Shown here one piece after another: positions 23,568-60,532 of a stretch of DNA of 64,000 nucleotides (its first letter is position 1; each line of letters opens with the position of its first letter). Origin of the DNA: Arthrobacter pigmenti (lineage in GTDB: Bacteria; Actinomycetota; Actinomycetes; Actinomycetales; Micrococcaceae); the NCBI RefSeq assembly GCF_011927905.1, contig NZ_JAATJL010000001.1, positions 496,001 to 560,000 on the forward strand, read 5' to 3'. The notes below the pieces were generated by a model. The model ran no database searches. It was not told the DNA's origin and saw nothing but the letters and a program-made list of their open reading frames with translations. A program made the position numbers and the translations under genes.

Positions 23568-24320
23568 CTAGGAGGACTTCTCCTTTGACAGTTCCATGAA
23601 CATGGTCCTGTGCAGCACATCGACATGCCCGCGCGCCACGTCTACGGATTCCCGCACATCCCGACGGCGCAGCGCATCGACCAGTGCAATGTGGTCCAGG
23701 TTCGCCCGGTGCAGTGCCTCGATGGGGTAGGGGATGAAGTGTTCGTACAGCTCAGTGAGCACAGAGCCGTAGCTTTCGACGGCGGTTCCCAGCTGGGACG
23801 CCCGTGCCACCAGGAGGTGGAAGCGTTTGTCGGCCTGATGGTACTGGGACCAGTTGGAAGCTTCAGCCATGTCACCGGTGAGCTGCTCCAGTTCGTCAAT
23901 GTCGGGATCTGTTGCGTTGACGGCCGCGAAGTGGGTGATCGCGCACTCCGCGAGCAGACGCCGATCCACCAGCGCATGGATCGCCGCCGGGGTGTCATCG
24001 GTTTCCCGCAGGCTCACCAGGGTGTCAGTTGGCGGGCTGTCCGAAACGAACGTGCCGCCGTCGCGCCCGCGGCGCCTCACAACGACGCCGGCCTCCGCCA
24101 GACTGGCCATCGCACGGCGTGCGGTCATCGGGCTGACGGACAGGCCGAGAGCGATTTCCTGCTGATCCGGGAGGCGTTCGCCGGGCTTGAGCAGACCCAG
24201 GGAGATTGCCATGGCGATGCGCGCGCGCACGGCGTCGATCGCTGAACGGCGACCTACCCCTGCCACGGCTGTGGCACTCAGCGGCGCGGAGTCCTCCTGG
24301 GACGGGGAAAGGCTGCTCAT
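23568..24320 (-). CDS. GntR-family (FadR-like) transcriptional regulator
   Basis: A 250-residue regulator. It has an N-terminal winged helix (LKPGERLPDQQEIALGLSVS, then MTARRAMASLAEAGVVVRRRGRDGGTFV) and a C-terminal FCD-type all-helical ligand domain with acidic and His residues (DKRFHLLVARA, ARGHVDVLHR) that usually bind a metal and a carboxylate. It is divergent from a nitrilase-permease operon with a perfect dyad between them and most probably represses it. The start codon is the first of the frame; an inner start is possible because about 20 N-terminal residues are not conserved. Confidence 0.88.
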   Translation of the reverse strand: MSSLSPSQEDSAPLSATAVAGVGRRSAIDAVRARIAMAISLGLLKPGERLPDQQEIALGLSVSPMTARRAMASLAEAGVVVRRRGRDGGTFVSDSPPTDTLVSLRETDDTPAAIHALVDRRLLAECAITHFAAVNATDPDIDELEQLTGDMAEASNWSQYHQADKRFHLLVARASQLGTAVESYGSVLTELYEHFIPYPIEALHRANLDHIALVDALRRRDVRESVDVARGHVDVLHRTMFMELSKEKSS

Positions 24321-24355
24321 CTATTCAGCCTAGCGATGCGCGAACACATGTCTTG

Positions 24356-24380
24356 ATATTAGCTCAAAGTGAGCTAATAT
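24356..24380. promoter_or_regulatory. GntR operator
   Basis: ATATTAGCTCA (24356-24366) and TGAGCTAATAT (24370-24380) are perfect 11-bp complements around AAG. The dyad lies between the divergent GntR gene and the nitrilase operon, 36 bp from each start. Confidence 0.75.
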
Positions 24381-24417
24381 TGCGTAAGTCACATTCGTTC
24401 AGCTCGAAAGCGATCCC

Positions 24418-25308
24418 ATGCCCGAGAAACTGCCACTGCTTGCGCTGCAGTCCGAGCCCCGCCAAATAGGGGAACCGATTAGTGCATTCGCTGGGGAGCT
24501 TGAAGACGCACTGCGCATCGACCCGGACGCGAAGCTGCTCATCTTTCCGGAACTTCACCTGTTCGGGGACGGACACCCTGACCGGCAGCGTACGGAAGCC
24601 TTGCAGGATGCAGCGCAGCCGCTCAATGGACCGTTAGTGAAGGAACTGAGCGAGCTTGCGGGTGATCTGAAGATCTGGCTGGTGCCCGGAAGCGTGTGCG
24701 AGCGCGGACCGAATGGCGAATTGTTCAACACCCAGGTGGTGTTTTCCCCTGAGGGCCGGCTGGCGGGAAGCTACCGCAAGATCTTCCCGTGGCGTCCCTT
24801 CGAGCCGTACGATCCCGGCGACAGCTTCGTCACAGTGGACCTCGAAGGGTACGGGCGGGCCGGTTTGTCGATCTGCTACGACGCCTGGTTCCCGGAGGTC
24901 AGCCGACAGTTGGCCTGGATGGGTGCCGAGGTGATTATCAACGTCGTAAAGACGACGACGCCGGACCGTGAGCATGAGCTGATCCTCGCCAGGGCGAACG
25001 CCATCTCCAACCAGGTCTTCATTGTCAGCGTCAACTGTGCGGGACCTACCGGCCGCGGCCAGAGCCTCATCGTCGGACCCGAGGGCGAGGTGCTCCGCCA
25101 GCTCGGCGAAGATCCCGGGACGCTCTCGATGTCCCTTGACCTGGGTGAAGTTGAACGGGTGCGCGCGCATGGCACTGCGGGCCTGAACCGCATGTGGGCG
25201 CAGTTCCGTTCCCATGAAGCGCCGATAGAACTGCCGGTTTACAACGGCCGAATCAATCCATCTACCTGGACCCCCGAGGTCCACCGCACGTCAGGATCAA
25301 CGCAATGA
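24418..25308 (+). CDS. carbon-nitrogen hydrolase (nitrilase superfamily)
   Basis: A 296-residue hydrolase with the Glu-Lys-Cys triad in place: Glu45 in IFPELHLFG, Lys121 in GSYRKIFPWRPFEP, and Cys153 in LSICYDAWFPE, followed by the ILARANAISNQVFIVSVN helix. The superfamily cleaves amides, N-carbamoyl groups or nitriles. The sequence does not decide between these; the AISNQ and PTGRGQS segments suit an aliphatic amidase or N-carbamoyl amidohydrolase. The ATG at 24418 follows AGCTCGAAAGCG. The stop overlaps the permease start by four bases, so enzyme and importer form one unit under the GntR regulator. Confidence 0.88.
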   Translation: MPEKLPLLALQSEPRQIGEPISAFAGELEDALRIDPDAKLLIFPELHLFGDGHPDRQRTEALQDAAQPLNGPLVKELSELAGDLKIWLVPGSVCERGPNGELFNTQVVFSPEGRLAGSYRKIFPWRPFEPYDPGDSFVTVDLEGYGRAGLSICYDAWFPEVSRQLAWMGAEVIINVVKTTTPDREHELILARANAISNQVFIVSVNCAGPTGRGQSLIVGPEGEVLRQLGEDPGTLSMSLDLGEVERVRAHGTAGLNRMWAQFRSHEAPIELPVYNGRINPSTWTPEVHRTSGSTQ

Positions 25309-46634: not shown

Positions 46635-47999
46635 ATGAGTAGAACGCCCACCGGAGAAATCAGTCCGCTCCGCGAGGCCGGCGTCGGCCAGAGGGATCCG
46701 CGGAGAGCCGCGATGAGCGGTTGGATCGGAAGCGCACTCGAGTACTACGACTTCGCGTTGTACGGGCTCGCCGCGACCCTCATCTTCCCGGCAATCTTCT
46801 TCCCGTCCGAGAATCCGACCGTCGGAATCATCGCCTCCCTCGCCACCTACGCCGTGGGGTACGTTGCACGTCCGATCGGCGCGGTTGTCCTCGGTGCGTA
46901 CGGAGACCGGCACGGGCGCAAGCACGTGCTCGTCTTCGCGATGCTGCTCATGGGGTTCGCGACGTTCGCCGTCGGCCTCCTGCCGACGTACGCGCAGGTC
47001 GGCCTTCTCGCGCCTGTGTTGCTGGTGGTCCTCCGCCTGATCCAGGGGTTCGCGGTTGCGGGCGAACTCGGCGGCGCCAGCGCGATGATTGTTGAGCATT
47101 CCCCCGATGCCAGGCGCGGCTTCTTCGCGAGTTTCAGCCTTCAGGGCACGCAGGTCGGTTCCATCCTGGCTACCGGCGTTCTGCTTACTCTCGCCGCCAT
47201 CCTTCCCGATGAGCAGTTCGAGACCTGGGGCTGGCGCATCCCGTTCCTGCTCAGTGCTGTCGTGATCCTCGCCGGGTACTACATTCGCAGGCGGGTGCAG
47301 GAGCCTCCGGCATACCAGGCACAGGCCGACAGCGGCGAGACGAAGCGACGGTTCCCGCTGATCGAACTGCTGCGTAGCTACCCATGGGTGGTGCTTCGTT
47401 GCGTCATCATGACTTTCACCAATGTCATCGGTATGGCGACGCTCATCTTCGGGGTGTCCTACGCGACGCAGGACGGCTACGGCATCGGGTACTCAAGCGA
47501 TGATTTCCTCTGGGTAACCCTGGTGGCGAACGTGGTCGCCGTACTGACAATTCCGGTATTCGGCGGACTGTCCGACAAGATCGGCCGCCGCGCATTGATG
47601 GTGGCCGGCGGGCTCGGCGGTGGTCTGCTTGCGGGCGGTTACCTGTGGGCTATCGAGCAGAGGAGCCTGCTGCTGGTCTTCGTGTGCGTCGTGATTGTGC
47701 AGGGGCTCCTTTTCCAGATGTGGAACGCAACCTTCGCCACGTTCTTCCAGGAGCAGTTCCCGATGCGCATCCGTGTGACCGGGTTCGCGGTGTCGCAGAA
47801 CGTCGGCCTCATGATCGCATCATTCTTCCCGAGCATCTTCACAGCGATCGCCCCGCCCGGTTCCGAGAATGTTCCGATGGTCATCGGGCTGACCACGTTC
47901 GGCATCTGCCTGATCGCGGCGGTGGCTACGCTTCTGTCGCCTGATACCAGGAGCAAGTCGCTCGAGGACCTGGAAGGTTCCCCGGCGCGCGGCGCCTAG
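46635..47999 (+). CDS. MFS transporter, metabolite:H+ symporter (MHS) type
   Basis: A 454-residue 12-helix transporter. The MHS signature is clear: SGWIGSALEYYDFALYGLAA in helix 1, VARPIGAVVLGAYGDRHGRKHVLVFAMLLMG between helices 2 and 3, RLIQGFAVAGELGGASAMIVEHSPDARRGFFAS, and WGWRIPFLLSAVVI. Substrates in this group are carboxylates such as shikimate, citrate, ketoglutarate or proline/betaine. GAAGGAAAC precedes the ATG. The gene is monocistronic, overlapping a convergent gene by four bases. Confidence 0.88.
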   Translation: MSRTPTGEISPLREAGVGQRDPRRAAMSGWIGSALEYYDFALYGLAATLIFPAIFFPSENPTVGIIASLATYAVGYVARPIGAVVLGAYGDRHGRKHVLVFAMLLMGFATFAVGLLPTYAQVGLLAPVLLVVLRLIQGFAVAGELGGASAMIVEHSPDARRGFFASFSLQGTQVGSILATGVLLTLAAILPDEQFETWGWRIPFLLSAVVILAGYYIRRRVQEPPAYQAQADSGETKRRFPLIELLRSYPWVVLRCVIMTFTNVIGMATLIFGVSYATQDGYGIGYSSDDFLWVTLVANVVAVLTIPVFGGLSDKIGRRALMVAGGLGGGLLAGGYLWAIEQRSLLLVFVCVVIVQGLLFQMWNATFATFFQEQFPMRIRVTGFAVSQNVGLMIASFFPSIFTAIAPPGSENVPMVIGLTTFGICLIAAVATLLSPDTRSKSLEDLEGSPARGA

Positions 48000-48352
48000 C
48001 GCCAGAACACCGCCACAACGATGTTCAGCAGCGTCAGTCCGCCAATAACACCCAGAATGACGGACGGCCCGGCGTCCTTCTTTCGGTTGAGAAAGGCCAG
48101 TACGACGACGGCGACCATCACCAGCAGCTTCACCGCGATTTTGAGGTTGTCGACTTCCGCGAGGTCGCCTGCTTCGATGACGCCGACGAGTCCGAGCCCG
48201 GTGACCAGTTGCAGCCAGCTGCCGTGAAGAATGCCGGGAGTCACCACGGCGCCGCCGGTGCGCATGCTGCGGATCTGGGCAAGCACGCCGCCGAGGATCG
48301 CGGCCAGGCCAACGAAGTGCAGGACGAGAAGCAGGTTGCGGAGCAATTCCAT
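47996..48352 (-). CDS. hypothetical four-helix membrane protein
   Basis: A 118-residue protein with four hydrophobic segments: LLLVLHFVGLAAILGGVLAQ, HGSWLQLVTGLGLVGVIEA, KLLVMVAVVVLAFLN and VILGVIGGLTLLNIVVAVFW. The HFxGLAAxxGG and N-x-K-I-A-V-K segments are shared with a small actinobacterial family whose role I do not know. A diverged copy of its last 20 codons exists at 49841-49905, beyond the ATPase gene. It is convergent with the MHS transporter. Confidence 0.65.
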   Translation of the reverse strand: MELLRNLLLVLHFVGLAAILGGVLAQIRSMRTGGAVVTPGILHGSWLQLVTGLGLVGVIEAGDLAEVDNLKIAVKLLVMVAVVVLAFLNRKKDAGPSVILGVIGGLTLLNIVVAVFWR

Positions 48353-48422
48353 TGGAATAGCTTAAGCATCTGTCTACGCACTAGTGATTAGTGTGACCGC
48401 GGCCAGGGCTTGTTAGGGTTGC

Positions 48423-48521
48423 TGCAAACCTACGAACTTAGTGTTGCGAATCTACGAAAAGTTATATGCAAACCTACCGAGTTCTTGTTGCGAATCTACG
48501 AAGAAGCACTTAGATTCGTAG
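48423..48521 (+). repeat. four 22-bp tandem repeats plus an inverted half-site before the ATPase
   Basis: Units start at 48423, 48445, 48467 and 48489, exactly 22 bases apart, each opening TGCRAAYCTAC and continuing GAA (CGA in unit 3). Units 1 and 3 read TGCAAACC, units 2 and 4 TGCGAATC. After unit 4 the complement of the core, TTAGATTCGTAG, occupies 48510-48521, one base before the GTG start at 48523. The spacing equals two DNA turns, as expected for cooperative binding on one face. Confidence 0.85.
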
Positions 48522-48522
48522 T

Positions 48523-49788
48523 GTGCCTGACCTGATACGCCGCAATGTTCATTCGTATGCCCAGGACGTCCTTAACGCATTTCCGGTGCTGTTGGTCCAA
48601 GGGGCCAGACAGGTGGGTAAGAGTACTTTCGCCCAAATGGTGACGGCAGGCACCCCGTCTCGGACAGTGACTCTCGACAGTGAGGAGACGCGAGCGGCTG
48701 CAGAGGCAGACGCACCGGGTTTCGTTCAGCAGCACCCGCAAGGGACACTGGTCATCGACGAAATCCAGCGGATGCCGAGCCTGACTTTGGCGATCAAAGC
48801 CACTGTTGATGAGGATCGCAGACCTGGACGGTTTCTATTGACCGGTTCCTCGAATTTGCTGCACCATCGCGGCATACAGGACAGTCTCGCCGGGCGGGCT
48901 GCGTCAATCGATCTGTTTGGGCTGAGCATCGGTGAACTGCACGGCAGGAAAGATGACCTCGTGGGGACTCTTGTCGGGTCGTTGAAGGACTCTGCGCCGG
49001 CCTCTTTTTCGACGAACTGGGAGCGAAGGCGAACCGTCGACAGCATTTGTGCAGGCTCTTACCCTGGCTTGATCCAATTGAGCGGGCGATTGCATTCGAC
49101 TTGGGTGGACAGCTACCTGCAGCGGGTTATCGAACGGGACGCCACCGACCTCCGAACCGTATACCAGCCCGCTCGATTGAAGTCGCTGCTGAGATTGATT
49201 GCGGCGAACCAGTCCGGGGAGCTTGTGAAAGCACGCTTGGCAGAGCAGGCCGGCCTACCAGCGACATCGATCACGGCTTATCTGGATCTGCTCGGGTCGC
49301 TGTATCTGGTGCATACGGTTGAGCCATGGACGCCCAACCTGACGAAGCGGGAGGTTGGGCGTCCCAAGAGTCTGGTCACGGACTCGGGAGTGGCTGCACG
49401 ATTGAACGGAGCCTCAGCCGCCCGATTGCAGGATGTCTCTTCAGCTGACCATCTAGGCGGCTTGTTGGAGGGGTTCGTTACGGCAGAGCTTCTGAAGCAG
49501 CAAACCTGGACGTCCGAGCCATTTCGACTGTTCCATTTCCGCGATCGAACGGGAGCGGAAGTTGATCTTGTCATCGAACTGGACGACGGCTCAGTCATAG
49601 GTATAGAGGTCAAGTCGTCCACCTCTTTCAACGCCAAGCAATTTACGGGGCTCAAGTTCCTGAGAGACAACCTTGGGGACCGTTTCCTCGGCGGAGTGGT
49701 CCTGAACACCGGTCAACGTGGTTACCGATTCGCCGAGAAGTTATGGGGGCTTCCCGTTGCCGCACTATGGGAGCCGCTAAGCGGGTAG
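48523..49788 (+). CDS. AAA ATPase with DUF4143 C-terminal domain
   Basis: A 421-residue protein. The P-loop GARQVGKST is near residues 27-35 and Walker B LVIDEIQRMP near 76-85, followed by FLLTGSSNLL (sensor 1), LAGRAASIDLFGLSIGE, and a winged-helix part LVKARLAEQAGLPATSITAYLDLLGSLYLV. The DUF4143 end contains GAEVDLVIELDDGSVIGIEVK, the Asp and Glu-x-Lys pattern of a PD-(D/E)xK nuclease fold. Physiological role of this family is unknown. The GTG follows the repeat array directly; no ribosome binding site is visible. It is a distant relative of the protein at 50937-52196. Confidence 0.88.
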   Translation: MPDLIRRNVHSYAQDVLNAFPVLLVQGARQVGKSTFAQMVTAGTPSRTVTLDSEETRAAAEADAPGFVQQHPQGTLVIDEIQRMPSLTLAIKATVDEDRRPGRFLLTGSSNLLHHRGIQDSLAGRAASIDLFGLSIGELHGRKDDLVGTLVGSLKDSAPASFSTNWERRRTVDSICAGSYPGLIQLSGRLHSTWVDSYLQRVIERDATDLRTVYQPARLKSLLRLIAANQSGELVKARLAEQAGLPATSITAYLDLLGSLYLVHTVEPWTPNLTKREVGRPKSLVTDSGVAARLNGASAARLQDVSSADHLGGLLEGFVTAELLKQQTWTSEPFRLFHFRDRTGAEVDLVIELDDGSVIGIEVKSSTSFNAKQFTGLKFLRDNLGDRFLGGVVLNTGQRGYRFAEKLWGLPVAALWEPLSG

Positions 49789-49840
49789 TCGGTTGGGCTC
49801 CTCTGGACGCAGGGAACCGCCCGCAAGTTCGGGTACGCGA

Positions 49841-49905
49841 TCAACCCCAGAACACGGTGACGATGATGTTCAGCAGCGTCAGCCCGCCTATGATCCCGAG
49901 AATTG
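49841..49905 (-). pseudogene. 3' fragment of a paralogue of the membrane protein at 47996
   Basis: The minus strand reads ILGIIGGLTLLNIIVTVFWG and then stop, matching the end ILGVIGGLTLLNIVVAVFWR of the intact gene. DNA identity over about 60 bases is roughly 80 percent, so it is not a fresh copy. No more of the gene is present. It flanks the ATPase module on the side opposite to the intact gene. Confidence 0.7.
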
Positions 49906-49957
49906 GGTGGCACAGTCATGGCACCGCCTAATGGGCGAAAACCGTGCTCAACGCTAG

Positions 49958-50085
49958 GTTCAAGTTAAGGATCTTCAAGCTGCCGATCGTGAATCGGTTA
50001 TTGCCTTCGTCTGTGAGCAACAGGTGGGTGTTGTGGCCACGACTGCACCCCATGGCCGGCCCGAAGCGGCGCTCGTAGGGCGCGC
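49958..50085 (+). pseudogene. N-terminal fragment of a pyridoxamine-phosphate-oxidase-like gene
   Basis: The frame reads VKDLQAADRESVIAFVCEQQ and then VGVVATTAPHGRPEAALVG, which matches the start of PNPOx-fold FMN-binding proteins (LGVVATVxPDGRPExALVG). The rest of the protein is absent and the frame runs into the convergent GAP gene. It is a relic. Confidence 0.55.
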
Positions 50086-50088
50086 CGC

Positions 50089-50814
50089 CTACAGCACCGC
50101 CCCGGACATGTTCACGACCAAAACCACCCCGAGGATCCCCACCAGCCAGGACAGCGTGTTGGTCGAGTTACGCGCCAGCCACCCGTCCAGTTTCCGCAGC
50201 ACCGGATCCACCAGCCGCGCAGCCCCCAACCGGAGCACCAGCAGGACCACCGCTGGCAGCACCATGAGCAGGCAGTACCCCGCGAGCACACCGCCGGAAA
50301 CGGGCCACCCGATCTCCGACGTCGTGATCAGCCCGATCGCCCCCAGGTAAGGCAGCATCGTTGCGACCTCCACGGTGGTCGCTGCGAGGGCGAGTCCCAC
50401 CAGGGCGAGCGTGCCGCCGGTGGCCGTGCCGCCGTCGTCGTTCCCTACCGCCCGTGCCCGCCACCGCGGGAACCGGCCCGACGGCGCCGCCCCCGAAGCC
50501 TTCTCACGCTTGGCTTTCGCTTCGAGTGAGAAGCTCCACGCGACCAGGCCCAACCCTGCGGCGAGCAGGCCGATCTTTGCCGGTCGGGTGGTGAAAAAGT
50601 CTCCGAACTGTTCAACGGCGAGTTCGGCACCGAAGTAGACCGCCACGCCCACGCCGAAGTAGAAGACGCAGACCGTCAGCAGGAACACCAGGATCCGCGT
50701 TACGCGCAGCCGGCCGGGCGCGAGCATCAGCCACAGCGGAATCACCAGGGTGCCGAAGCTGGTGGAGTCGATCAGGGCAAGGACCGCCAGGATTCCGGCG
50801 AGGGTAAGCGTCAT
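50089..50814 (-). CDS. GAP/Sap family membrane protein (SfLAP-like)
   Basis: A 241-residue protein with six hydrophobic helices. It opens LTLAGILAVLALIDSTSFGTLVIPLWLML; the ALIDSxSxGTLxIP motif is the hallmark of the actinobacterial GAP (sulfolipid-1-addressing-like) family, related to LysE-type exporters. TTVEVATMLPYLGAIGLI is the second-repeat counterpart. The ATG at 50814 is chosen because it opens helix 1. Its upstream region is partly repeated at 52402-52460. The substrate is unknown. Confidence 0.8.
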   Translation of the reverse strand: MTLTLAGILAVLALIDSTSFGTLVIPLWLMLAPGRLRVTRILVFLLTVCVFYFGVGVAVYFGAELAVEQFGDFFTTRPAKIGLLAAGLGLVAWSFSLEAKAKREKASGAAPSGRFPRWRARAVGNDDGGTATGGTLALVGLALAATTVEVATMLPYLGAIGLITTSEIGWPVSGGVLAGYCLLMVLPAVVLLVLRLGAARLVDPVLRKLDGWLARNSTNTLSWLVGILGVVLVVNMSGAVL

Positions 50815-50862
50815 GCCGACGACGCTACGCGGCACGCGCCGCAGAGGGAGTCTGCCGAAAGG
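50812..50862. repeat. upstream segment of the GAP gene, repeated at 52402-52460
   Basis: The first 31 bases (50812-50842) recur at 52402-52432 with one change. A further identical 11-mer, AGTCTGCCGAA (50849-50859), recurs at 52445-52455 after a short insertion. The copy lies between the second ATPase and the Fic gene. Confidence 0.75.
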
Positions 50863-50877
50863 CCGATTCCGCACCTA

Positions 50878-50931
50878 CGCGTACACCTTTTGGCTGACTC
50901 CTCGGCGGGCGCTGTGTGGTGCAATCGAGGG
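50878..50931. repeat. 54-bp direct repeat, left copy
   Basis: Identical over 54 bases to 54001-54054. It begins CGCGTACACCTTTTGG and ends GCAATCGAGGG. The right copy is the promoter region directly before the histidine kinase start. This left copy faces only the 3' end of the second ATPase gene. The two enclose 3,069 bp. Confidence 0.92.
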
Positions 50932-50936
50932 TGAGT

Positions 50937-52196
50937 TTAGGGACCAAGCAGGCTCAGGGGAATGACAGCGATCCCATCGGCCCGTCGATAGGCAGCCGGG
51001 CCGGTGGTGAGCACGGCAGCATCCGCCAGGCGATCACCCAAAACACTCCGTAACCAGTGCAGGTGATTGACGTCTCGGTCGCTCACTGTTGCAGCGAGCT
51101 TTATTTCCAGTGCTACGAGCTTGCCGTCGTACCGTTCCAGCACCAGGTCCACTTCCCGATCACCGTTGCGGGTGCGAAAGTGCCCTACAGATGCTTCGGC
51201 TGCCTGTGCGAGGACCCGGACGGACAGCGTTGCCAGTGATTCGAACAACTGGCCTAGCCATCCGCCGCCTGCAAAACCCCGTGTGGAGCCGATTGATTGT
51301 TCGGTGGTCCCCGTGAGGGTGGCGGCAAGTGCCGGGTCGGCGAGTTGGTGTTTCGGCATGACAGCCAATCTGGTGAAAGGGTTTGGGGACGGAACCCAAG
51401 CAGGCAACGGGTCGAGGATCCAAAGTCGCGTGAGCAGGTCTCGATAGGTAGCAGTAGTCACTTTCGACGGCTTGTCTGAATCCCCCGTGGTGGCGGCGTC
51501 CAAAATCCGGCTGTACGACGCCGTCGTTGAAGTTGCCGCCGAATATGCTGTAAGCCAAAGCCGGAGGGATTGCGGCCGCCGCAGGGCATAGCCCTGCTCA
51601 GGAACGTCCCTGTCCACAATCCGGTCCACGTAGCCAGCAAGCTGGAGGCGACGAGCTCGCGGTGGTAGCGTGCGAATTCCGGGGAAACCCGATGCAAGTA
51701 TCTCCCTGACGTAGTCGGGCAATTCCAGAGTGGACCGGCCGCTGATTGCACTGTCTTTGTTGAACATGGCTGCCAGGGAAACGGTGGGTTCAGCCAGCCG
51801 ACGTTCCGAAAATGCCAAGGGGCGCATACGCAGGGAAACAATTCGTCCGGCACCGCTGTGCGTATCGGTCCCCGGTCTGGGCGTTGCACTGCCTGTAAGC
51901 AGAAAACTTGCTGGCGCGGCGCCGTCGTCCACTGCCCGACGCACAACGTCCCATAACGGTGGTTCAAACTGCCATTCATCCACAAGGACGGGAGGATGCG
52001 CTCGGAGTATGGCACGAGGGTCGGCCCGCAGCAGCTCCCGCTCGGCTGGCGAATCGAGAAAGAACGTTGACGCTGCTCGCCGGGCTGCGGTGGCTGTTTT
52101 TCCGACGCCCTTGGGTCCATCGAGGGCAATGGCGCTCAGCGTCGGGAAAAGTTCATCCAATTCCTTGTCCACAACCCGTTCTACGTACGATGCCAT
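50937..52196 (-). CDS. AAA ATPase with DUF4143 C-terminal domain, second module
   Basis: A 419-residue protein with P-loop DGPKGVGKT near residues 27-35, Walker B VLVDEWQFEPPLWD near 70-83, FLLTGSATP, MRPLAFSERRLAEPTVSL, and a C-terminal REVDLVLERYDGKLVALEIK nuclease-fold motif. It differs from the module at 48523 over most of its length but keeps the domain order, so it is a separate family member and not a recent duplicate. GGAG lies 7 bases before the ATG. Three 23-bp repeats lie just upstream. Its stop is 6 bases from the left 54-bp repeat. Confidence 0.87.
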   Translation of the reverse strand: MASYVERVVDKELDELFPTLSAIALDGPKGVGKTATAARRAASTFFLDSPAERELLRADPRAILRAHPPVLVDEWQFEPPLWDVVRRAVDDGAAPASFLLTGSATPRPGTDTHSGAGRIVSLRMRPLAFSERRLAEPTVSLAAMFNKDSAISGRSTLELPDYVREILASGFPGIRTLPPRARRLQLAGYVDRIVDRDVPEQGYALRRPQSLRLWLTAYSAATSTTASYSRILDAATTGDSDKPSKVTTATYRDLLTRLWILDPLPAWVPSPNPFTRLAVMPKHQLADPALAATLTGTTEQSIGSTRGFAGGGWLGQLFESLATLSVRVLAQAAEASVGHFRTRNGDREVDLVLERYDGKLVALEIKLAATVSDRDVNHLHWLRSVLGDRLADAAVLTTGPAAYRRADGIAVIPLSLLGP

Positions 52197-52212
52197 TGCG
52201 TCTCCAATGCTT

Positions 52213-52281
52213 TAGTATCCCATTAGCAGATACTCTAGTATCCCATTAGCAGATACTCTAGTATCCCGATAGCAGCTACTC
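52213..52281 (-). repeat. three 23-bp tandem repeats before the second ATPase
   Basis: Units 52213-52235 and 52236-52258 are identical; 52259-52281 differs at three positions. Each carries an internal dyad, AGTATC and GATACT separated by 9 bases. The array starts 16 bases upstream of the ATG at 52196, in the promoter or leader. Confidence 0.88.
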
Positions 52282-52401
52282 AACTTGGCTGTTGGCAGCA
52301 TGCTCACTATCCAATTGAGACGCCGTGCTGGCCTGGGGAAGCGTTTCGTCACCAACCGCTGGTACGCGTGGTCGCTTTCACCGGTTCCACCGCCAGAATT
52401 C

Positions 52402-52460
52402 CATGCCGACGACGCTACGCAGCACGCGCCGCTGCCGCGGACGCAGTCTGCCGAAGAGGT
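52402..52460. repeat. diverged copy of the GAP-gene upstream segment
   Basis: Matches 50812-50862 in two blocks (30 of 31 bases, then an 11-mer) with an insertion of a few bases between them. It lies between the 23-bp repeats and the Fic operator cluster. Confidence 0.72.
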
Positions 52461-52501
52461 GCTGATGCAGCGAAGGTCACTGGTCAAAGTTGCAGGCCTT
52501 G

Positions 52502-52615
52502 AAGTGGGAATCGGGGAGTGGCTACCGACGACAACTGCGCGAAGTGGGAATTGAGGAGCGAAGTATTCCCACTAACTATTCCAAGTGGGAGTATTGGTCC
52601 TGTAGATTCCCATTT
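52502..52615. repeat. cluster of AAGTGGGAAT half-sites before the Fic gene
   Basis: Direct copies are AAGTGGGAAT at 52502-52511 and 52542-52551 and AAGTGGGAGT at 52583-52592. Inverted copies are TATTCCCACT at 52564-52573 and ATTCCCATTT at 52606-52615. Centres of neighbouring sites from 52546 on are 19 to 23 bases apart. The last site ends 11 bases before the TTG start at 52627. Confidence 0.75.
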
Positions 52616-52626
52616 GAGGAGAGCCA

Positions 52627-53895
52627 TTGGAACAACCGCGTGAGAGATCAGGAGTTCCCACCGGTGGAAGGTACGCGCAGCGCGTTGCGTCAGAAACAGG
52701 GACCGTTCCTACGTCAGCGGATCCGTGGCCACCGGTAACCTACGAAGAGCGTCCCTGGAAAGCGGACAGCGATTCGGGCATTTCACGCAGGCAGCGTCTG
52801 CGCGCGAGAGGTCCGTACCAGGCGGCGGTGCTCGAACCCATCGCTGATTGCACTCCCCACCTGGGTTCTCGAACCCATGCCATGGCCGAGCAGGCCATCG
52901 TTGAGATGGTGCGGTTTGACGCCGAGATGGGCGCCGGAACGGCACCGTTTGCGAACCTCCTGCTCCGCAGTGAGTCAGCGGCAAGCTCGCAGATCGAGAA
53001 CCTCACCGCAGGGTCGCGGAAGATCGCTCTGGCTGGACTGGGTGACACCTCCAGCGGGAATGCGCGCCTCATCATGTCCAACGTCGCCGCCATGAAGGCA
53101 GCGCTGGATCTCTCCGATGACCTGTCGGTGCAGAACATCCGGGAAATGCACCGGGCGCTGATGCTTGAGTCCGAGCCCGATATTGCAGGACAGATCCGGG
53201 AATCGCAGGTGTGGATCCACGGCAGCTCGCCGCACACCGCGGACTTCGTGCCTCCGCATCACGAGCGGGTGACAGCGGCCCTCGAAGACTTGGCTGAATT
53301 CATGCAGCGCGACGACGTCCCAGCGCTGACACAATCAGCGATCGCCCATGCCCAGTTCGAAACCATCCGGCCGTTCGCCGACGGCAACGGCCGCACAGGC
53401 AGAGCCATTGTTGGGTCAATCCTGCGAAACAAGAATGTGACGGAGAGGGTCACCATACCCGTATCCTCGGGGCTCCTCACCGACACCGCAACCTACTTTG
53501 AGTCGCTGACTGCGTACCGCGAAGGCGACATCCAACCGATCGTAGAGCTCTTCGCTGAGTCCACGTTCCGTGCGATCGACAACGGCCGGCAACTCGGTGC
53601 CGAGATTGAGGAGGCACGAAACGAGTACAAGGGCCGCGTCATGCATTCGAAATCCAAGGTTGCCCACGACGTCGTCGACTTCCTCACGAGCGAACCAGCA
53701 ATCACCGCGCAGATGCTCAAGCATCGTACAGACGCCTCAGAATCAGCGGTGTACCGCGCTATGGAGGTGCTGCTGGATGCGGAGGTGCTGAAGCCGGCGG
53801 GCAAGGTGAAGGGGATGGCGGTCTACATTGCGACGGACATCATTGATGCGCTGGACGACTTCGCTGCACGCGCCGGACGCCGCCAGCGTCACTAA
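52627..53895 (+). CDS. class II Fic-domain protein with HTH tail; catalytic His replaced by Arg
   Basis: A 422-residue protein. An N-terminal Fic_N-type region carries the inhibitory helix motif SSQIEN (Ser-x-x-x-Glu-Asn) near residues 118-123. The Fic core is AQFETIRPFADGNGRTGRAI, where the canonical HPFxDGNGR has Arg instead of the catalytic His; the remaining phosphate-binding residues are intact. A C-terminal winged helix (VVDFLTSEPAITAQMLKHRT then SESAVYRAMEVLLDAEVLK) follows. Fic enzymes normally transfer AMP to proteins; loss of His argues against that and for a binding or regulatory role. The TTG at 52627 has GAGGAGA 6 bases upstream. Confidence 0.88.
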   Translation: MEQPRERSGVPTGGRYAQRVASETGTVPTSADPWPPVTYEERPWKADSDSGISRRQRLRARGPYQAAVLEPIADCTPHLGSRTHAMAEQAIVEMVRFDAEMGAGTAPFANLLLRSESAASSQIENLTAGSRKIALAGLGDTSSGNARLIMSNVAAMKAALDLSDDLSVQNIREMHRALMLESEPDIAGQIRESQVWIHGSSPHTADFVPPHHERVTAALEDLAEFMQRDDVPALTQSAIAHAQFETIRPFADGNGRTGRAIVGSILRNKNVTERVTIPVSSGLLTDTATYFESLTAYREGDIQPIVELFAESTFRAIDNGRQLGAEIEEARNEYKGRVMHSKSKVAHDVVDFLTSEPAITAQMLKHRTDASESAVYRAMEVLLDAEVLKPAGKVKGMAVYIATDIIDALDDFAARAGRRQRH

Positions 53896-54000
53896 CCGAA
53901 GATGAGGTGATATTCCCAGCTCTTATGGCAGCGCTGAGTCTTCGTAGTCCCCGTGGCCGGCACGGTAGATCGCGAAGGCCCATGTTGGCATACGCTACCG
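53896..54000. other. gap after the Fic gene, nothing recognised
   Basis: About 105 bases between the Fic stop and the right 54-bp repeat. No hairpin with a T tract and no coding frame is evident. It contains one TTCGTAG heptamer (53942-53948), as in the array before the first ATPase, probably by chance. Confidence 0.5.
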
Positions 54001-54054
54001 CGCGTACACCTTTTGGCTGACTCCTCGGCGGGCGCTGTGTGGTGCAATCGAGGG
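54001..54054. repeat. 54-bp direct repeat, right copy (kinase promoter region)
   Basis: Identical to 50878-50931. It ends at the base before the GTG start of the histidine kinase, so it is the native upstream region of that gene and the left copy is the duplicate. Confidence 0.92.
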
Positions 54055-57985: not shown

Positions 57986-60532
57986 ATGAGCTTTCTCGAT
58001 CAAGTACCAGACAAGCAGCGGCCGGAGGTCCTGGAATTTCTGAAGACTGGTAAGTATCAGCTCCTCCTAGGCGCTGGTGCAAGTAGGGACTCGAAGAGCC
58101 GGAATGGTGAGCTGCTACCACTTGCTTCCCATATGACGCAGGAGCTCAACTCGTTGTCCTCATCGGTCCAGAGCCGGATCACGTCAGCTTATGAGATAGC
58201 GCAGCGGCGATCCCCCGCTGAACTCGAAGCATATTTGAAGGATCGTTTCACAGAGTGCAAACCGGCCTTCTGGTGGGAGGACGCTCTCGATTGTGCCTGG
58301 AAGCGAATTTGGTCGCTGAACATCGACGACGTAGTCGAACAGGCCATAGACCAACACAACGGTTGGGAGCAACACCGGACTAAGTCGTACACGTGGCATC
58401 ATCCTCTACAAGAATTCGATGGGCTGCAGGTAATTCACTTGCATGGTTGGTCGAGATGCGATGCAAGCAACCAAATGATTTTCAGCATCAGCCAGTACGC
58501 AGAGGCAACGAAGAAAGAACACGGTTGGCATCGGAAGTTCTTCGATGAATGGGGTCAAAGCCCGTTCATCGCCGTCGGAGCTGGTCTATTTCAAGAGTTC
58601 GACCTTACGGAAGCGCTTCAAGCTCGTCCTGCCTCTCCCAATGTTTTCTCCCTCTACGTGTCCCGAACGATCGAACCCGAGACCCGCGAGCTTCTAGACC
58701 TAGCGAATTTGATTCCCATTGAATGCACTGCGGAGGACTTTTTCGCTGAGGTTGAGGAACTGACACGGGAAGCACGGAAGAGCGCGAGATTCAGCTGGTA
58801 CCAGCAAGGCGCCCCTGCTGAAGTCGTTGCGGCGATGGTGCAACAATTTGAACTTTTGGGAGCGGAGGGAGCGTTCTTAGACCGAGATACTGATCGAGAC
58901 TTTTACGCTGGCGACGAGCCGGAGTGGGTAGATATCGTACGGGATAAGGCGGTAGAGCTTTCCTGGTATCCCTCGCTTGCACAGGTCGTTGCTGATGACA
59001 TTAAGAACAAGCGTCAGAGGGCGCACTTCTTACACTCCAAGCGGCTGGCTGGGAGGACCGTCACACTGCTTCAAGTATCCAAACTGTTGATAGACCGAGG
59101 TATAGATGTCTTCTGGTTTCGGTCCTCGTACCGACCTGACCCGCAGGTGGTCGCAGAATTCCTCGCAACCCGTAGCAAAGCGGCTCTCATCTTCGACGGT
59201 ATAGCGGATTTCGCCGATGACGTCTCGCAATTGATGCAGGAGTGTGCGTCCAAGAAAATCACCTGCGTCGTACTAGCGGCAGATCTCGCGTCGAGAAGGC
59301 CGGCCATTCAGAATCAGTTCGACATGATTTACGGGATGGAGTTTCATGTTCCCAATGCGCGTTGGGACTCCTGGCCGCTCAATCAGAGGGATGCACGAGC
59401 AGTGGTCGCCAAGATTGAGAAGGTCGGACGCTTTGGTTTAATCCGAGGTCTTGACGCTGGGGAGCGAGTCGATGTGTTCTTCAAGCGAGAGATATTTGAC
59501 GGACTTAGTCAGGCGGAGTATGGTGCAGGATTTCGTACCCGAGTCTACAAAGAACTTCAGAATCTTCCCGAGGGGCGGGTTCGCGCCCTGGTGGGTCTCA
59601 TAGCCGCTCTGAGCTCTCAGGGCCGGGGGTTTCCTCTTAGCTACGCGTCAGCGGCAGGCGTCGACTCGAGAACTCTCAATCGGGAGTTGCGAGCCGGCTC
59701 GCTTGGCTCTTTTCTGCAAGTCAGAGGGACCTTCCTCAGAATGAGATTTCGCGCGTTAACCCCCCAAGATTTATACCCGGGACACCTGAAGGATGGCTTT
59801 TTCGAATCATGGGTGGATTTCTTGACTTCTATATCCGTCTATGCCGGTACGAAATCACGGCAGCAGCGTTCCGAAGCATATCTTCTGATAAAGACGCTAA
59901 TGCGTCATGGAATCGTGCGACATGTGCTAGGTTCCCATTATCTCAGCGGCTTCTATGAAAAACTGCAACCGAAGTATGAAGAAGACGCGCGCTTTTGGGA
60001 ACAACGAGCTCGGGCACATGTAACGTTAGAAAACTACACCCAAGCTATGTCATACGCTGCCAAAGCGTGTGATATAGCTCCGCGAGATAGCTGGCGGCTC
60101 ACAACGTATGCGGATATAAGTTTGATCCGGGCTTATGAGGAGTTTCCTATAGGTTCGGATGATTTCTGGAAACTTTACGATATCGGTCACGAAGGATTAA
60201 ATAAGGCGCTGAGTCTATCTCCTTCCAATTCACTTCCGACCTTACTTGGATTGAAGCGTTCGATGAGAGCATACCTTCGCTACATCCAGTCCGATCGGAC
60301 TAATGGTGTGACTGTACTCGAAGATCTTGAGCAAGATATTGTCAAACAAATCAGAACTGCGTATAGCTTGGGACGTATTGGACAGACAATTCACGCTGAG
60401 GAAGTAATGGCGCTTGAGACCGAGTTCCTTCGGTGGGTAGCAGCTAAAGATGCCCCGGAGCATTGGGGAGATCCAGGTTTCCTAAACGCCCGTCTGCTCA
60501 ACACGGACTCCGCGGAAGGCGTTACGGTATAA
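57986..60532 (+). CDS. SIR2-domain protein with degenerate STAND-like ATPase and TPR-like tail
   Basis: An 848-residue protein of defence type. The SIR2-like NAD-binding domain has LLLGAGASRDS near residues 26-36, WSLNIDDVVEQA near 108-119 with the conserved Asn-x-Asp, and VIHLHGW near 148-154 with the catalytic-position His. A middle domain shows HSKRLAGRTVTLLQVSKLLI near 347-366, in which the P-loop Lys is Arg, and a Walker B-like ALIFDGIADFAD near 397. The C-terminal third is helical, with a TPR-like stretch ARAHVTLENYTQAMSYAAKA near 672-691. By analogy with SIR2-STAND (Avs-like) proteins, sensing of a phage product would trigger NAD depletion. AGGAG lies 8 bases before the ATG. Base composition is AT-richer than the backbone. 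Confidence 0.78.
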   Translation: MSFLDQVPDKQRPEVLEFLKTGKYQLLLGAGASRDSKSRNGELLPLASHMTQELNSLSSSVQSRITSAYEIAQRRSPAELEAYLKDRFTECKPAFWWEDALDCAWKRIWSLNIDDVVEQAIDQHNGWEQHRTKSYTWHHPLQEFDGLQVIHLHGWSRCDASNQMIFSISQYAEATKKEHGWHRKFFDEWGQSPFIAVGAGLFQEFDLTEALQARPASPNVFSLYVSRTIEPETRELLDLANLIPIECTAEDFFAEVEELTREARKSARFSWYQQGAPAEVVAAMVQQFELLGAEGAFLDRDTDRDFYAGDEPEWVDIVRDKAVELSWYPSLAQVVADDIKNKRQRAHFLHSKRLAGRTVTLLQVSKLLIDRGIDVFWFRSSYRPDPQVVAEFLATRSKAALIFDGIADFADDVSQLMQECASKKITCVVLAADLASRRPAIQNQFDMIYGMEFHVPNARWDSWPLNQRDARAVVAKIEKVGRFGLIRGLDAGERVDVFFKREIFDGLSQAEYGAGFRTRVYKELQNLPEGRVRALVGLIAALSSQGRGFPLSYASAAGVDSRTLNRELRAGSLGSFLQVRGTFLRMRFRALTPQDLYPGHLKDGFFESWVDFLTSISVYAGTKSRQQRSEAYLLIKTLMRHGIVRHVLGSHYLSGFYEKLQPKYEEDARFWEQRARAHVTLENYTQAMSYAAKACDIAPRDSWRLTTYADISLIRAYEEFPIGSDDFWKLYDIGHEGLNKALSLSPSNSLPTLLGLKRSMRAYLRYIQSDRTNGVTVLEDLEQDIVKQIRTAYSLGRIGQTIHAEEVMALETEFLRWVAAKDAPEHWGDPGFLNARLLNTDSAEGVTV

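Follow-up and report, generated by a model that had tools for sequence, protein, structure and literature searches.

Private upstream repeat arrays as probable self-repression operators of two DUF4143 ATPases and a Fic protein in Arthrobacter pigmenti

Why should three neighboring genes each begin immediately behind a different set of short repeats? The question is raised by a 64,000-nucleotide stretch of the Arthrobacter pigmenti genome (contig NZ_JAATJL010000001.1, positions 496,001 to 560,000; hereafter the window, in whose numbering all positions are given), where two ATPases with AAA_14 and DUF4143 domains, P1 and P2, and a Fic protein, P3, are encoded close together, each behind its own repeat array. 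An initial annotation, made from the letters alone, had proposed that each protein binds its own repeats, as in autoregulated addiction or defense modules, and our comparison of relatives at the sequence level lends support to that proposal for the DUF4143 ATPases. We consider it probable that the ATPase, which combines an AAA+ domain, a winged helix and a PD-(D/E)XK nuclease, represses itself through its own private array, and that the Fic protein does likewise through inverted half-sites. The arrays themselves, their fixed period, their privacy, their nearness to a -10-like box and their covariation with the protein can be seen directly in the sequences.

The repeats are exactly as first counted, four with a 22-bp period, three of 23 bp and five half-sites, and the two ATPase genes and the Fic gene do start directly behind them (Table 1). 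Scored against 200 dinucleotide shuffles, arrays 1, 2 and 3 alike had a direct-repeat score that no shuffle matched (0/200), while their inverted-repeat scores were matched by 13, 2 and 1 of the 200 shuffles, respectively. The cores of array 1 read, in order, TGCAAACCTACGAA, TGCGAATCTACGAA, TGCAAACCTACCGA and TGCGAATCTACGAA, with start-to-start distances of 22, 22 and 22. Two of the three units in array 2 are identical and the remaining one carries three mismatches; array 3 contains five AAGTGGGAAT half-sites, of which two are exact and three carry a single mismatch, in the orientations + + - + -. We scanned the 46 open reading frames (ORFs) of at least 150 amino acids in the window, P1 and P2 included, taking the first ATG or GTG as the start, and found a direct array at 2/200 or better only for P1 and P2; the Fic array was detected only after its TTG start had been supplied by hand. 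One divergent pair, at 23570-25305, shares an intergenic inverted repeat (1 and 0 of 200 shuffles), probably an ordinary operator.

Table 1. Positions of the genes, arrays and predicted sites discussed in the text, numbered from the first letter of the window.
Feature	Coordinates	Strand	Description
Array 1	48423..48502	+	Four 14-bp cores, spacing exactly 22 bp
Predicted -10-like box of P1	48511..48516	+	TAGATT, 6 nt before the GTG, assigned by eye; leaderless promoter predicted
P1	48523..49788	+	AAA_14 + DUF4143, 421 aa, GTG start at 48523; PADLOC PDC-S01
P1 codons for residues 246-259	49258..49299	+	Residue before, and the whole of, the modelled recognition helix (247-259)
P2	50937..52196	-	AAA_14 + DUF4143, 419 aa, ATG start at 52196; PADLOC PDC-S01
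Array 2	52213..52281	-	Three 23-bp units, minus-strand reading ...TGCTAATGGGATACTA...
Array 3	52502..52615	+	AAGTGGGAAT half-sites at 52502(+), 52542(+), 52565(-), 52583(+) and 52606(-)
P3	52627..53895	+	Fic protein with helix-turn-helix-like C-terminal part, SoFic-like; TTG start at 52627
Arg replacing the catalytic His of the Fic motif	53368-53370	+	RPFADGNGR

One fixed array test was applied to DUF4143 relatives, using 140 nt of upstream sequence, offsets of 15-60 and a requirement that 0/100 shuffles reach the score; the start of each relative was taken as the ATG, GTG or TTG closest to 25 residues before Walker A. The own-family set came from 295 genomes, 56 of which had DUF4143 matches and 45 had matches over the cut-off, and took in 81 of the 83 over-cut-off places (two short fragments were left out). 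A phylum-wide sample returned 30 loci, and a set of P1-like genes in named genomes spanning many phyla was drawn from the best 80 of 446 confirmed relatives. Before counting, two loci without a profile match and four genes without a start were dropped, as were eight ORFs without a start or with a short upstream region from the named-genome set, 29 genes from two later sets (no start, short upstream, or an upstream region already counted), and one gene without a start from a plasmid set.

Arrays preceded 60/76 genes of the own family, 50/76 of the named-genome genes, and 20/42 and 15/24 genes in the two later sets. Outside the plasmid set, 153/248 DUF4143 genes carried a direct-repeat array, compared with 4/193 control genes of the same loci; these counts are not independent events, since the gene sets hold relatives. 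The check suggested at the outset, that DUF4143 genes be surveyed for upstream arrays, thus came out in favor of the idea. Scoring with fresh shuffles gave 67/76 at 0/60 and 60/76 at 0/100 for the family, and 48/76 and 50/76 for the named-genome set. Whatever the sequence of the repeat, the array offset was about 22-23 bp or double that in 140 of the 153 arrayed genes. An unconstrained search over 15-60 bp returned offsets of 22, 23, 24, 44 or 46 in 50/60 own-family arrays and 40 in the other 10/60, while all 50 named-genome arrays had offsets of 22, 23, 44, 45 or 46; in the paralogue set, 3/20 had an offset of 32, 38 or 42. The 40-bp spacing, in place of 22-23 bp, marks a DUF4143 subgroup (loci L071-L080).

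The arrays had been described as sharing no sequence with each other, and this privacy extends to paralogues elsewhere. In 17 genomes with at least two arrayed paralogues, comprising 50 genes and 154 ordered pairs, a unit matched its own array at 12-14 of 14 positions and the upstream region of a paralogue at a mean of 8.66 of 14, barely above the 8.53 obtained with shuffled DNA. Genomes rich in DUF4143 genes, such as G435 with 14 matches and G245 with 10, would be useful for testing paralogue insulation. P1 and P2 are the only DUF4143 genes in their own genome, where copies of the degenerate array-1 unit without mismatch occur in array 1 only, and the three copies of the array-2 unit with up to two mismatches all lie within array 2. 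Array-1 sites with one mismatch number three elsewhere in that genome, as against six for a reversed control pattern. Within the window, the array-1 unit recurs at three places with three mismatches each, the array-2 unit nowhere outside array 2 with up to six mismatches allowed, and AGTGGGAA singly at three further places.

If each protein reads its own array, the two should change together. For this comparison we removed weak arrays, poor register fits and proteins more than 85% identical (32 of 35 P2-like rows were used before the identity filter), and unit registers in the P1-like and P2-like alignments were seeded from hand-chosen units. Among 105 arrays, similarity fell from 0.80 at more than 80% protein identity to 0.24-0.26 at 20-40%, close to the column-shuffled null of 0.23, and 0/300 permutations gave as high a correlation between array similarity and protein identity. 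Partial correlations were 0.181 for the winged helix and 0.107 for the AAA part (0/300 permutations each), and 0.042 for the nuclease part (5/300). In 47 P1-like genes, array letters were most strongly associated with residue 246, which immediately precedes the recognition helix, and winged-helix columns exceeded the others (p 0.002), as did the recognition helix (p 0.019). Of the 355 columns ranked in 58 P1-like genes, the first, third and fifth were residues 235, 248 and 246, all in the winged helix; p was 0.014 for this domain and 0.035 for the recognition helix. In a separate clade of 26 P2-like genes, residues 248, 250 and 246 ranked 2, 5 and 8 of 298 (rank 1 was residue 278), the recognition helix was enriched (p 0.0002; whole winged helix, only p 0.053), and the strongest single pair joined residue 245 to unit position 8.

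Partial reading rules accompany these rankings. Among 64 P1-like genes, all 12 with D246-x-K248 have TCC at one fixed place in the unit, as do 0/52 of the others; K248 occurs in two more genes, with N at 246 and without TCC. By eye, TTCCA is also present in front of four plasmid genes with S-H-K, which were added afterwards; a fifth, with Q-R-K, is ambiguous. Among P2-like genes, GTAG accompanies P-A-K-T in 9/10 rows (the exception is L061), GTTCAG accompanies P-A-K-G in 2/2, and P-T-K-V/M comes with GTATAG or GTACAG in 3/3.

Both lines of evidence bear on the idea that the arrays are operators of some other regulator and not of the gene's own product. Separate regulators can control defense genes, but here the array sequence tracks the recognition helix of the ATPase itself in two clades. 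Moreover, the units in the Arthrobacter genome are confined to their arrays except for the three one-mismatch sites, and paralogue arrays differ, so that one unlinked regulator would be needed for each gene. We regard this explanation as unlikely.

A maintenance role is less likely still. In that case the array would be an iteron, a centromere or the end of a transposon, and the ATPase would serve replication, partition or transposition while also regulating itself. Regular 22-bp sites are known for transposition proteins and iterons, and among 72,556 plasmid records 226 carry P1 relatives (among 50,697 phage records 7 do, each from a human faecal sample). Against this, the genome contains no second array, and P1 and P2 are encoded on the chromosome close behind promoters and have the nuclease motif. 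Ends of a Tn7-like or other transposon were rejected, arrays 1 and 2 each being single and upstream of a gene. Coding repeats were rejected as well, since a period of 22 or 23 is not a multiple of three.

In 66/140 arrayed genes, against an expectation of 9.5, a TANNNT box ends 5-9 nt ahead of the start codon, at 6 or 7 nt in most; the last core lay a median of 16 nt from the start codon. By eye, P2 has no TANNNT box at 5-9 nt before its start. The arrays would thus overlap the likely core promoter or lie immediately upstream of it, a geometry that suggests repression. Arrays so near the start codon, in front of a gene whose product has a nuclease motif, could instead act in the RNA or serve as the nuclease's target, which we judge marginally less probable than a maintenance site. 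However, a -10-like box at 5-9 nt would place the array upstream of the transcript in those 66 genes, and cutting its own promoter would presumably be costly to the cell. The arrays are also not simply tandem -10 boxes: by eye, TANNNT is frequent in P2-like units and mostly absent from P1-like units. We give almost no credence to chance or shared ancestry of upstream DNA as the source of arrays and spacing, for although the sets include related genes with common upstream DNA, the 4/193 controls largely refute it and the units differ widely between genes while the spacing stays at about 22-23 bp across phyla.

The proteins have parts that could perform such control. In P1 the domain order is AAA+ NTPase, winged helix and PD-(D/E)XK, and structure models of P1 and P2 (predicted local distance difference test scores of 91.8 and 88.2) place the recognition helix at residues 247-259 and 245-257, respectively; the DNA-reading role given to it is the usual one of a recognition helix in winged-helix proteins. 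Conserved across an alignment of 22 relatives are Walker A and Walker B, part of the TGS motif, E346-x-D348 and K364, and E362 of E362-x-K364 is nearly invariant; we take this E-x-D ... E-x-K pattern to be the expected PD-(D/E)XK nuclease signature. A sequence search of the PDB returned only P-loop-type matches, so folds were compared. The best match of the P1 model was the archaeal Walker ATPase 2qen (Z 16.6, 251 aligned, 4.6 Å), followed by 2fna, of the same kind (Z 14.9, 250 aligned, 4.4 Å), and the cores of plant NLR proteins and CED-4 gave Z 13.0-14.4. P1 accordingly has the STAND-type core of NTPase, helical part and winged helix, and ends at residue 421 after the nuclease part, with no C-terminal repeat sensor domain of the STAND type. 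The structural matches cover mostly residues 1-314 and hardly probe the nuclease fold, so that PD-(D/E)XK is assigned from motif conservation, the strands of the model and the description in print.

That description is of PDC-S01, an ATPase fused to PD-(D/E)XK and the fourth most common defense system across prokaryotes, with 29,494 bacterial and 9,986 archaeal systems; as reported there, experimental validation is pending for most PDCs (PMC12988326). P1 and P2 match the PADLOC PDC-S01 profile over their full length (1.5e-150 and 1.3e-75), as do 22/22 members of the alignment of relatives at 1e-10, and the defining fusion is predicted in them from Pfam AAA_14 plus DUF4143, the nuclease motif and the modelled strands. 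We therefore treat both as candidate single-gene defense systems of the PDC-S01 kind. We found no evidence for the addiction half of the suggested "addiction or defense" role, in an analysis that did not search small ORFs systematically for an antitoxin partner. Next to them stands the SoFic-like P3, and the gene at 57986-60532, a SIR2-like, nSTAND NTPase and TPR protein with only a partial Avs5 match, is likely a further defense gene near all three. In Thermus, the presence of a plasmid in an Argonaute-bearing strain was accompanied by a 6.6-fold rise of the DUF4143 gene TT_P0211 (PMC4406477), which, as far as that account goes, is compatible with inducible control and silent on arrays.

From these features we infer binding, repression, a trigger and nuclease action, as follows. 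The start of the recognition helix would read a core of about 14 bp, and typically three to five such cores would lie head to tail over the gene's own promoter, one every 22-23 bp, or about two helical turns. Several copies of the protein, side by side, would block RNA polymerase, and a single-gene defense nuclease would in this way hold itself at a low level. With its own core and a matching helix for each gene, several such genes could share one cell without cross-talk. Upon infection the protein might be titrated away, degraded or switched by nucleoside triphosphate (NTP), opening the promoter so that nuclease is newly made or set free; the Fic gene would be under the same control through a classical operator of inverted half-sites. 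In B-DNA, a step of 22-23 bp measures about 75 Å, and subunits in closed AAA+ rings are spaced more narrowly than that. We thus picture an open row of elongated subunits and no ring.

A more speculative extension, possible but in our estimation doubtful, is that the array is also a resting dock for an immune sensor, on which a row of PDC-S01 proteins, ordered head to tail, occupies its private site with the nuclease held safe. Whatever stripped the row, be it phage DNA-binding proteins, takeover of transcription or changes in NTP, would at once free armed nuclease and open the promoter. If so, the private sequence would let many sensors coexist, and the STAND-like winged helix would read DNA by a recognition code that evolves.

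Several results weigh against self-repression through private arrays. Arrays were found in only 8/30 genes of the phylum-wide sample and 7/21 plasmid DUF4143 genes, and 95/248 relatives have no significant direct array. Seven of the 154 paralogue pairs matched at 11-12 of 14, where shuffled DNA gave 1.3% at 11 and none at 12. By plain correlation, array similarity goes slightly more closely with the AAA part (0.270) than with the winged helix (0.252); in a regression on pairs below 45% identity the coefficients were 0.16 for the AAA part, 0.07 for the winged helix and -0.05 for the nuclease. In background-corrected pairs from the 47 P1-like genes the winged helix was not enriched (9 of the top 50, from 57 of 356 columns). 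On passing from 47 to 58 genes, the p value of the recognition helix rose from 0.019 to 0.035, residue 246 fell from rank 1 to rank 5, and columns 342, 195, 147 and 396, outside the winged helix, ranked high; the limits of the recognition helix also differed slightly between analyses. Among the four S-H-K plasmid genes, the array is significant for only two. A tree-aware test of K248 offered 3-4 independent contrasts with a median sign-test p of 0.5 (on average 1.9 of 3 contrasts agree and none opposes), and with so few contrasts descent may be the source of the D-x-K/TCC rule. Finally, the winged helix of STAND proteins usually touches the nucleotide domain, not DNA.

The expectation that arrays covary with the helix-turn-helix part was accordingly borne out in the column rankings of two clades, which peak at or near the recognition helix, and not by the tree-aware test, which was non-significant, or by the regression on distant pairs, which favors the AAA part over the winged helix. 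Homologues without upstream repeats had been named as one observation that would count against the idea; an inverted repeat unmatched by shuffles precedes 28 of the 95 that lack a direct array, compared with 11/189 controls. Strong palindromes stand beside the start codon, without a 22-23 bp array, in L287, L293, L311, L315 and L345, and such start-codon palindromes are a second operator geometry within the DUF4143 family. PADLOC subfamily was rejected as the cause of array absence, as 8/10 array-less genes scanned have PDLC04790 as best match, like P1.

The Fic gene follows a different design. P3 matches the PADLOC SoFic profile at 2.1e-64 and scores 52.6 bits against an NCBIfam equivalog whose cut-off is 550. 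The catalytic motif of Fic proteins is HPFxDGNGR; its His is kept in the other 27 of 28 motif-bearing Fic sequences and is Arg in P3, which predicts that P3 is AMPylation-dead and perhaps now only a regulator. Among 29 Fic genes including P3, repeats at 1/200 or better were inverted in 16, direct in 9 and of either kind in 19, and half-sites were often 39-42 bp apart. The predicted operators of the ATPases are mostly head to tail and that of the Fic gene is built of alternating inverted half-sites, so by operator design the three genes do not form a single class. Fic genes also adjoin DUF4143 genes elsewhere, on a Rhodoferax antarcticus plasmid (L347, 52-2763) and, with a P3-like Fic, at the family member L043.

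Longer repeats surround these genes. A perfect 54-bp direct repeat (50878-50931 and 54001-54054) flanks the segment of P2 and the Fic gene, and a 31-bp repeat (97%) lies at 50812-50842 and 52402-52432, the second copy between the P2 and Fic arrays, as if one gene had inserted with duplication and the other had inserted into the copy. P1 is flanked by a 57-bp repeat of 81% (48002-48058 and 49847-49903), whose far copy looks like the remnant of a paralogue of the small gene at 47996-48352. A DNA search of 38 genomes of the genus with the downstream kinase gene found, beyond its own genome, only partial matches, with 68-78% identity in the best of them.

Genes that regulate themselves through private operators are of a kind already known; relative to the literature that we searched, what appears new is a very common, uncharacterized single-gene defense family predicted to carry self-matched arrays with a two-turn step. 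For each gene, the arrays point to a DNA target, a partly decoded reading helix and a promoter, all of them predictions that can be taken to the bench, and the large natural collection of helix-site pairs could yield mutually insulated repressors. In the literature searched we found no mechanism for PDC-S01 and, with the PDC-defining preprint outside its coverage, no arrays in the DUF4143 family; a term search of the main text of PMC12988326 found neither "promoter" nor "autoregulat". The PDC-S01 profile matches P1 and P2 over their full length, and the published outline gives the same two domains. STAND/NB-ARC proteins and the archaeal Walker ATPases 2qen and 2fna have NTPase, helical and winged-helix parts like those of P1; STAND proteins carry sensor repeats at the C-terminus, where P1 has its nuclease part, and the winged helix of P1 is proposed to read DNA, unlike that of STAND/NB-ARC ATPases.

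Two characterized regulators are also close. CccR, a class II Fic protein with a C-terminal helix-turn-helix, binds palindromes near -35/-10 and represses its own promoter (PMC9755527). Effector and autorepressor are thus combined in one protein, a direct precedent for P3 that would make its operator one of a known kind. CccR differs from the ATPases in belonging to another protein family and in using inverted repeats with a 26-bp spacer, not head-to-tail repeats every 22-23 bp. RptR, a defense-island repressor, binds cooperatively to three direct repeats overlapping a -10 box (PMC12255303), and so resembles our proposal in having direct repeats at the -10 of a defense promoter. As described, RptR is a separate small regulator with 9-bp repeats of one palindrome, TAGCTA, whereas here the effector itself would be the repressor, with a different sequence for each gene.

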